A DNA stretch of 34,668 bases from Chitinophagaceae bacterium (GTDB taxonomy: Bacteria > Bacteroidota > Bacteroidia > Chitinophagales > Chitinophagaceae), in NCBI GenBank assembly GCA_947468255.1, contig CANIMM010000002.1:1-34668 (forward strand). The letters run 5' to 3'. Positions 7,970 through 28,525 of this stretch are shown in pieces. Position numbers and translations under genes: made by a program. The notes beneath the pieces were generated by a model, which searched no databases, was not told where the DNA came from, and worked only from the letters and a program-made list of their open reading frames with translations. Each line of letters begins with the position of its first letter. Positions within the stretch are counted from its first letter, which is position 1.

Positions 7970-8025
7970 GGTGAATGGTGAATGGTCAATGGTCAATGGT
8001 GAATTGTCAATTGTCAATGGTCAAT
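7970..8025 (+). repeat. Array of 8 degenerate heptamers (GGTGAAT/GGTCAAT/TGTCAAT)
   Basis: Read directly: GGTGAAT GGTGAAT GGTCAAT GGTCAAT GGTGAAT TGTCAAT TGTCAAT GGTCAAT in constant 7-bp register, starting 9 bp after the DUF1080 stop codon. Confidence 0.95.
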
Positions 8026-8071
8026 TGAAAGTTTGCGATCTTTCATTTAACTTTCTTATTTAATTACAAAA

Positions 8072-8127
8072 AATATGCAACAACCGCCGTCAGTGGTTGA
8101 AAACCCTGACGGCGGTTGTTGCATATT
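8072..8127. repeat. Perfect 22-bp inverted repeat (hairpin) with 12-nt loop; possible NRAMP-side terminator or REP/MITE-like palindrome
   Basis: AATATGCAACAACCGCCGTCAG (8072-8093) and CTGACGGCGGTTGTTGCATATT (8106-8127) are exact reverse complements; GGTT/AACC extends pairing inside the loop. On the minus strand the stem runs into ATATTTTTTG. Confidence 0.9.
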
Positions 8128-8180
8128 CACCATTCACCATTCACCATTCACCATTCACCATTCACCATTCACCATTCACC
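8125..8180 (-). repeat. Array of 8 perfect ATTCACC heptamers (reverse complement of GGTGAAT)
   Basis: Eight consecutive ATTCACC units at 8125-8180, ending 3 bp before the minus-strand NRAMP stop codon (8184-8186). Confidence 0.97.
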
Positions 8181-26940: not shown

Positions 26941-27330
26941 ATGCTGAAACCTTATTTATTTGTTGATAAAACAGATTCGATGGGAAGAGGTGTTTATACA
27001 GCAGAAACGATTGCTGAAAACACCGTAGTCGAAGTGTCACCGGTGATTGTGATGAGTGGCGATGACCGGATCCATTTGGATAAAACAGCCTTGCACGATT
27101 ATATTTTTGAATGGGGAGCGCTAAAAGACAAATGCTGTATGTCATTGGGGCTGGTGCCGATTTATAACCATAGCTATCAAAGTAATTGCGAATATTTTAT
27201 GAATTATGACGAGGATGTCATTCTTGTAAAAACAGTGCGCCTCATTGAAAAGGGAGAAGAGCTCACCATCAATTATAATGGCGACTGGGATGATAAGACA
27301 AAAATATGGTTTGACGCAGTAGAGGGTTGA
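26941..27330 (+). CDS. Short SET domain-containing protein
   Basis: MGRGVYTAETIAENTVVEVSPVIV; PIYNHSYQSNCEYFM (NHS...N motif); LIEKGEELTINYNG (GEELTINY motif). Confidence 0.85.
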   Translation: MLKPYLFVDKTDSMGRGVYTAETIAENTVVEVSPVIVMSGDDRIHLDKTALHDYIFEWGALKDKCCMSLGLVPIYNHSYQSNCEYFMNYDEDVILVKTVRLIEKGEELTINYNGDWDDKTKIWFDAVEG

Positions 27331-27331
27331 T

Positions 27332-27373
27332 GGTCAATGGTGAAATTGATAACGGATAGTTGATAACTGATAG
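27332..27373 (+). repeat. Left part of the second heptamer locus plus tandem 14-mer TTGATAAC(G/T)GATAG
   Basis: GGTCAAT GGTGAAA (27332-27345), then TTGATAACGGATAG (27346-27359) and TTGATAACTGATAG (27360-27373), 1 mismatch. Confidence 0.9.
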
Positions 27374-27423
27374 TGTGCTGGATGAATTAGCATAATAGTT
27401 CAGAAGCAGCAAGCTGGCCAAAT

Positions 27424-27493
27424 TTTCACCATTCACCATTCACAATTGCCCATTCACCATTGACCATTCACCATTGACCATTCACAATTCAAT
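27424..27493 (-). repeat. Right heptamer array of about 10 units (ATTCACC/ATTGACC variants) running into the 3' end of the convergent CDS
   Basis: TTTCACC ATTCACC ATTCACA ATTGCCC ATTCACC ATTGACC ATTCACC ATTGACC ATTCACA ATTCAAT, all in 7-bp register; the oxidoreductase stop codon (27482-27484) lies inside a unit. Confidence 0.92.
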
Positions 27494-28525
27494 CACTTTC
27501 TTTTCTTGGCAACTTAGTAATGCTGCCTCAATAATGCGCATGATGCCGATACCTTCTTCGGCGGTTACTGGCATTGGTTGATTATTTGTTATGGCTTTGT
27601 ATACGCCATCATAGTAGTCATAATAGTTACCTTTCAGTGATTCTACCTGCTCCCTAATAATTTGCCCATCTTTTTCGGTATGCAATAAACCTCGTTCCGA
27701 TGCTGGTTCTGTTCCCCAGTCGGTGGTATTGGGTATTTTACCGGCCAATAAATCGGCTTCTTGCACATCGGTTCTGTTTTTTAAAAAAGACCCTTTTGTT
27801 CCATGAACAATAAAACTGGCAAGCGGCTCCCTTACAAATACCCCGCTTTTTAATCGCACGCTGCAATCAGGATAATACAGGAGCAAATCAAACCAGTCAT
27901 CCACCAAAGATTCGGGCCGGGTGATTCGGATCTCTGCAAAAACAGCTTGCGGAAACCCAAATAAACAAATCGCACTATCGATGATATGGGGTCCAAGATC
28001 TTTTAGCAAACCTGACCCGGCGCTTTGAATTTCTTTGTGCGGCTTTGGATTGAGTAGGGGTTTATATCGGTCGTAATGAATTTCTGCTTCTACTATTTTG
28101 CCTAGCCAGCCTTCTGAAATTATTTTCTTTACCGTTCTAAAATCACTGTCAAAGCGCCTATTTTGATAAACGGATATTTTTTTATTTACCTTCTCAGCAA
28201 TGTCTTTCAGCTCTACCGCTTCTGCAACGGTTGTTGTAAAAGCTTTTTCTACCACCACGTGTTTGCCAGCTTGTAAAGCTTTTTTTGCATATTCGTAATG
28301 GGTAGCAGTGGGGGTATTCACCACTACCAAGTCAATTGATTCGTCTTCTAGAATGGCTTCCAGTGAGGGGTAGGAATTCACTCCCGGATAAAACTCGCCA
28401 ATGATTTTCTTGCTTCTTTCCCATGCACCCGCGAGTTGAAAGCCGGGGTGAGCTTGTATAAATGGCGCATGAAATAATTTACCAGACATACCGAACGACA
28501 GGAGGGCAGTTTTTATGGAAGGCAT
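27482..28525 (-). CDS. Gfo/Idh/MocA family oxidoreductase
   Basis: IKTALLSFGMSGKLFHAPFIQAHPGFQLAGAWERS; VVVNTPTATHYEYAKKALQAGKHVVVEKAFTTT; GSGLLKDLGPHIIDSAICLFG. Confidence 0.93.
   Translation of the reverse strand: MPSIKTALLSFGMSGKLFHAPFIQAHPGFQLAGAWERSKKIIGEFYPGVNSYPSLEAILEDESIDLVVVNTPTATHYEYAKKALQAGKHVVVEKAFTTTVAEAVELKDIAEKVNKKISVYQNRRFDSDFRTVKKIISEGWLGKIVEAEIHYDRYKPLLNPKPHKEIQSAGSGLLKDLGPHIIDSAICLFGFPQAVFAEIRITRPESLVDDWFDLLLYYPDCSVRLKSGVFVREPLASFIVHGTKGSFLKNRTDVQEADLLAGKIPNTTDWGTEPASERGLLHTEKDGQIIREQVESLKGNYYDYYDGVYKAITNNQPMPVTAEEGIGIMRIIEAALLSCQEKKVIEL

Follow-up and report, generated by a model that had tools for sequence, protein, structure and literature searches.

Inverted heptamer arrays fill a convergent gene junction from stop codon to stop codon in a Chitinophagaceae bacterium

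In the 34,668-nucleotide stretch of Chitinophagaceae DNA analyzed here (the window), inverted arrays of 7-base units and a core occupy the whole gap, stop codon to stop codon, between two head-on genes, which encode a SET-domain protein and an oxidoreductase. The arrays, their polarity with respect to coding ends, and their recurrence across genomes and phyla are observed directly. We assign a probability of roughly 0.4 to the reading that the cassette is an RNA-hairpin spacer anchored at stop codons, with a putative function.

The left neighbor is the SET-domain protein gene (26941 to 27330, + strand; PF00856, E value of 6e-15), and the right neighbor is a GFO/IDH/MocA oxidoreductase gene (27482 to 28525, - strand; PF01408 and PF02894). 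By sequence reading, the left arm (27325 to 27345, + strand) comprises three GGTSAAT-type units, GGTTGAT, GGTCAAT, and GGTGAAA, the first of which (27325 to 27331) contains the SET stop codon TGA at 27328 to 27330. It is followed by a stretch of TAACTGA-like heptamers (TTGATAACGGATAGTTGATAACTGATAG; 27346 to 27374, + strand), by the 58-bp dispersed core A (GTGTGCTGGATGAATTAGCATAATAGTTCAGAAGCAGC...; 27373 to 27430, + strand), and by a right arm (27424 to 27493, + strand) that spans the oxidoreductase stop. The right arm holds ten ATTSACC-type units in unbroken 7-bp register: TTTCACC, ATTCACC, ATTCACA, ATTGCCC, ATTCACC, ATTGACC, ATTCACC, ATTGACC, ATTCACA, and ATTCAAT. The ninth contains the oxidoreductase stop codon (27482 to 27484), and the tenth matches the consensus at only five of seven bases. 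Upon re-reading, the sequence and coordinates given in the original prediction for 27331 to 27493 proved correct, as did the inverted orientation of the two arms, the register running through the oxidoreductase stop codon, and the membership of this cassette in the same heptamer family as another at 7970 to 8180. The center had been described as a tandem 14-mer, which corresponds to the TAACTGA-like stretch; the dispersed core has to be added to it. This description of the cassette is secure.

The related cassette consists of a left arm of eight GGTSAAT-type units 3' of the stop of a 3-keto-disaccharide hydrolase gene (7970 to 8025, + strand), a GC-rich hairpin core, core B, which is itself a dispersed repeat (8075 to 8124, strand not assigned), and a right arm whose eight perfect ATTCACC units run to within 3 bp of the stop codon of an Nramp-like gene (8125 to 8180, + strand). 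Chance, which had been judged unlikely at the outset, is excluded as the origin of the repeat: the two-heptamer pattern ATTSACCATTSACC, allowing up to two mismatches, matches 24 times in the window against 0.95 expected, and the exact two-unit pattern matches 84 times genome-wide against a single match for the reversed pattern. The genome is a draft of 3.06 Mb that is 76% complete, and genome-wide statements are based on pattern and DNA searches. The design had been noted at two junctions, both of which do carry it, but the GGTSAAT/ATTSACC word occurs at about 26 places in this draft.

The RNA of the cassette at 7970 to 8180 has a predicted fold of -116 kcal/mol (z = -16.5) and that of the cassette at 27325 to 27493 a z score of -3.0, scores of a kind that repeats inflate. 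A scan limited in stem and loop size found no terminator-like site (GC stem-loop plus T run) and no U-tract terminator at either cassette of the window; by eye, core B is followed on the - strand by ATATTTTTTG. No Rfam model matched at its gathering score. For spacers in general, end-to-end pairing is barely above that of permuted controls. At two other loci (L039:1162-1217 and L034:4003-4030), arrays lie directly after what by eye is an ordinary-looking terminator of hairpin and T run; the two features can thus exist apart from each other.

The original prediction held that the repeat supplies the final residues of the oxidoreductase as well as its stop, and the orthologue comparison it had proposed as a check went against this for both neighboring proteins. 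The 14 full-length oxidoreductase orthologues (41 to 66% identical) terminate at the same position or no more than about three residues from it, the nearest of them with ...KVVEL*, NIVKL*, and KVVSL* against KVIEL* in the source genome, and none of the 14 has a heptamer array after its stop; SET orthologues likewise have their ends within about three residues. Since repeat-free orthologues end at or near the same residue, the array reaches the last codon and the stop at the DNA level without altering the protein end. It is also not kept at the SET/oxidoreductase locus among relatives of up to 66% identity. The idea of a repeat-supplied end can hold elsewhere, on the scale of one codon: in a hemE-like gene of another genus (L404/L408), the array-bearing species carry an additional Leu codon and a TGA that is in register with the repeat. 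In the nearest relative, a YceI-like gene (L098:2307-2843) lies between SET and oxidoreductase and is missing from the corresponding position of the window (27331 to 27481), making the convergent junction itself a derived one. In two further loci (L099 and L100), the SET and oxidoreductase genes are codirectional.

Array loci were classified in the source genome and in 17 other genomes of the order, with gene ends from a simple ORF caller whose start positions are especially approximate. Coding sequence is met by the GGTSAAT strand at its 5' end, most frequently at a stop codon, and not at the other end. Among arrays with only one end within 15 nt of coding sequence, that end was the GGTSAAT 5' end rather than the other by 17 to 0 in the source genome (P = 1.5e-5), 27 to 1 in the order (P = 2e-7), and 33 to 9 in GTDB (P = 3e-4). 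Uniform placement in the same gaps would give 5.0, 12.6, and 16.3 outer-end contacts, against 18, 32, and 39 observed. In the source genome and the order combined, 34 of 56 arrays with GGTSAAT on the coding strand lie near a stop (-30 to +15 nt), compared with 3 of 63 with ATTSACC (P = 1.4e-11), and the independent GTDB set, drawn from several phyla, repeats this (32/46 versus 7/50; P = 2.7e-8), so that the polarity at stops is clear in all three sets. Type strains of Niastella and Terrimonas, both Chitinophagaceae, appear among the GGTSAAT array matches. Arrays ending at a start show the opposite preference (ATTSACC, 16/54; GGTSAAT, 4/50; P = 0.006), with P = 0.18 for this start-side polarity in the GTDB set. 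Where two arrays are adjacent within 200 bp, GGTSAAT precedes ATTSACC in 14 pairs, the reverse order occurs in none, and six pairs are on the same strand.

Convergent placement had been expected to be enriched genome-wide. In the source genome, it is, weakly (7 of 21 array junctions versus 16 of 124 array-free ones; P = 0.046), but the 17 other genomes of the order show no such enrichment (9/65 versus 26/172; P = 1), and a general enrichment is rejected. Divergent junctions are depleted of arrays in those 17 genomes (P = 0.03). The general rule is the polarity of an array relative to coding ends, not convergent placement.

Conservation could be followed in another genus, that of genome G256, where array position is kept at two junctions. 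The spacer between kdsD-like and guanylyltransferase-like genes was read in 13 species. Four species have a 75-nt spacer in common, with four GGTSAAT units 3' of the stop in each, and their 31-nt left arms agree at 29 to 31 positions while identity at four-fold sites is only 0.36 to 0.60. In one species the heptamer words are swapped between the arms, in two an unrelated CCCC-type inverted element fills the same interval, and in three the spacer is plain. At the hemE/hemF-like junction, several different inverted words and the unrelated CCCC-type inverted element alternate between species. In both syntenic spacers, an inverted repeat from stop to start is retained while the heptamer word is exchanged between species, and the stems differ very little even though four-fold sites approach saturation. 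In each of five spacer groups, the stems show higher conservation than the unpaired interior (0.83 to 1.00 versus 0.62 to 0.87); none of the five shows a compensatory base change, the changes present being one-sided (G-C to G-U). There is no support for a recent transfer of conserved spacers together with their flanks, because identity at four-fold sites in the adjacent codons is not raised. These two junctions are where stem conservation above silent sites and word exchange are both observed, and the basis for conservation lies in them; the orthologous sites of the SET/oxidoreductase locus have no array. At L406, in genome G287, the CCCC-type inverted element of the hemE/hemF-like spacer extends into the downstream gene at its 5' end, apparently removing the start codon that this gene normally uses.

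We favor the hairpin spacer over an account in which neutral slippage makes the arrays, hairpin-templated copying makes the arms, and the loss of gene-invading arrays leaves sharp borders with coding ends as limits, which we regard as possible but less probable. In many bacteria, no long simple repeats are described as more common than heptamers (Mrazek; reviewed in PMC4679880 and PMC4692102), the words are exchangeable at a fixed position, and the stop falls inside the array in about half of the abutting cases. GGTGAAT moreover carries a TGA, so that wherever an array in coding-strand orientation overwrites the end of a gene it brings a stop with it. Matching arms, too, could be products of slippage or template switching. 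Neutral slippage would, on the other hand, hardly lead one to expect identical left arms beside near-saturated four-fold sites, or a unit number that holds at four across the four species compared at one junction. Nor do units decay along a gradient from either end of the array, as an outer-to-inner order of array age might show, and three species retain the order of G/C variants within the array, which is evidence against homogenization. The hairpin has difficulties of its own: many arrays are single armed, and pairing alone does not explain the absence of the reverse arm order.

A mobile REP/MITE-like element, spread by a transposase and with heptamer arrays as its ends, is unlikely, even though the cores are dispersed. 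Core A has 10 to 11 copies of about 80 to 95% identity in the source genome, every one preceded by TAACTGA-like words and followed by ATTSACC-type units. In 147 relatives it is essentially lacking, apart from one weak match of 83% over 37 to 44 bp, and it was not found in the GTDB and viral contigs searched, scans that may both leave out the source genome itself. Cores B and D are likewise dispersed and adjoin arrays. Heptamer arrays without these cores nevertheless occur in many phyla, and arms that touch both coding ends suggest that a spacer was replaced rather than inserted into. No Y1 transposase gene flanked by the cassette repeats was found in the 76%-complete genome, where the sole Y1 gene (PF01797; C125:7669-8013 of the source genome, G000; L083 and L084) is followed by several repeats of a different hairpin type, GCCCCATCGGGGC / GCCCCGACGGGGC. 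That is a RAYT/REP-like arrangement unrelated to the heptamer cassettes, and a RAYT-mobilized origin of the cassettes is rejected on this ground; with 24% of the sequence absent from the draft, a transposase may have been missed. The cassettes resemble REP/BIME elements with RAYT (Y1) transposases in being short, dispersed, palindromic extragenic mosaics, but differ in their heptamer arms, in the arrays that lack cores, and in that no transposase was found for the cores. Core D is a dispersed element of about 105 bp ending in GTTGGTCTTTTGACCAAC-type hairpins (L116 to L122; C244, C186, C286, C130, C257, and C238), with seven copies of at least 84% identity that adjoin heptamer arrays wherever inspected. 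A further dispersed repeat adjoining arrays is core C (CCTCCACAGCCGGCGGGCTGCGTAACTGCAACGCCGC...; L034, L038, and L043). At L091 (G072 C1:89111), a stop codon is followed by degenerate heptamers of the ATGCTAA/TTAG type, perhaps another word of the same kind, with a weak likeness to core A.

The geometry itself has precedent. Rehm et al. (2015; PMC4692102) described GGGAATC repeats in Xanthomonas and GGGGA(C/T)T repeats in Nostoc/Anabaena that are intergenic, commonly of about four units, with the G-rich strand coding just after stops and noncoding just before starts; inverted pairs were always convergent, and divergent junctions were underrepresented. Position was conserved between two Xanthomonas species, and the function was given as unknown, with quadruplexes suggested. 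GGTSAAT is alike in being a tandem, intergenic 7-nt unit that is close to genes, in the strand it presents after stops and before starts, and in forming only convergent inverted pairs (here the 14 versus 0 above), and we conclude that it is a new word of an already known kind of gene-anchored heptamer repeat. It differs in the genome-specific dispersed core between its arms and in the replacement of GGTSAAT by other heptamer words at the same junction in related species. It also has only GG and no G3 tract, and thus no ordinary quadruplex, which means that the geometry is independent of quadruplexes. G-quadruplex or i-motif DNA, as proposed for the GGGAATC and GGGGA(C/T)T heptamers, has the shared geometry relative to genes in its favor (PMC4692102), but GGTSAAT could form only two-tetrad structures with long loops, and GGTCAAT and ATGAGT words behave alike; of all the explanations we find this the least credible. 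Only slightly less remote is Rho loading, in which wrong-way transcripts entering a coding sequence would read the C-rich, G-poor AUUCACC and be terminated by Rho. Given the polarity, whatever transcript is about to run into a coding sequence does carry ATTSACC, and Rho is encoded in the source genome. Cyanobacteria are not known to encode Rho. Against Rho loading, the same geometry is reported in Anabaena, a cyanobacterium (PMC4692102). A second precedent is TAACTGA, which MacGregor (2015; PMC4679880) reported as intergenic direct repeats in Bacteroidetes, Cyanobacteria, and Beggiatoaceae, lying in the best-studied genome upstream of start codons in one orientation. TAACTGA-like words are part of the cassette at 27325 to 27493, but the main word here is GGTSAAT, in inverted pairs and mostly at stops.

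With the RNA-hairpin spacer as the favored reading, the complete intergenic spacer is constructed as one inverted repeat, its two arrays starting at the flanking stops and pointing at each other with the genome-specific core between them. Read into RNA, the array may work as a hairpin beginning at the stop codon. Between convergent genes, this would mark and protect the 3' ends of the mRNAs and limit read-through into the opposite gene; between codirectional genes, it would serve as a hairpin between cistrons. A stem of tandem heptamers would be cheap for slippage to make and renew, which would explain why many words serve. A broader proposition, which we consider rather doubtful, is that bacterial intergenic spacers can be exchangeable inverted-repeat units spanning exactly from a stop to the next start or stop. 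Selection would maintain the hairpin and the polarity of its arms while one word takes the place of another within a genus, and the geometry would be common to different phyla.

Repeats at gene ends built from heptamers have so far been reported phylum by phylum, each time with an explanation of their own (quadruplexes, translational regulation). That a G3-less word shows one geometry in Bacteroidota, and across phyla, argues against a quadruplex cause and opens a common mechanism to testing. Should selection act on the spacer hairpins, part of the "junk" spacer of Bacteroidota would have a function overlooked by annotation; otherwise, the arrays naturally record a mutational process that is directional and halts at coding ends. 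In IMG/VR, 41 viral-contig stretches (L340 to L380) carry three exact ATTSACC units and may be phage or host DNA. At L317:5829-6479, about 93 GGTSAAT-type units run on straight after a predicted stop codon.
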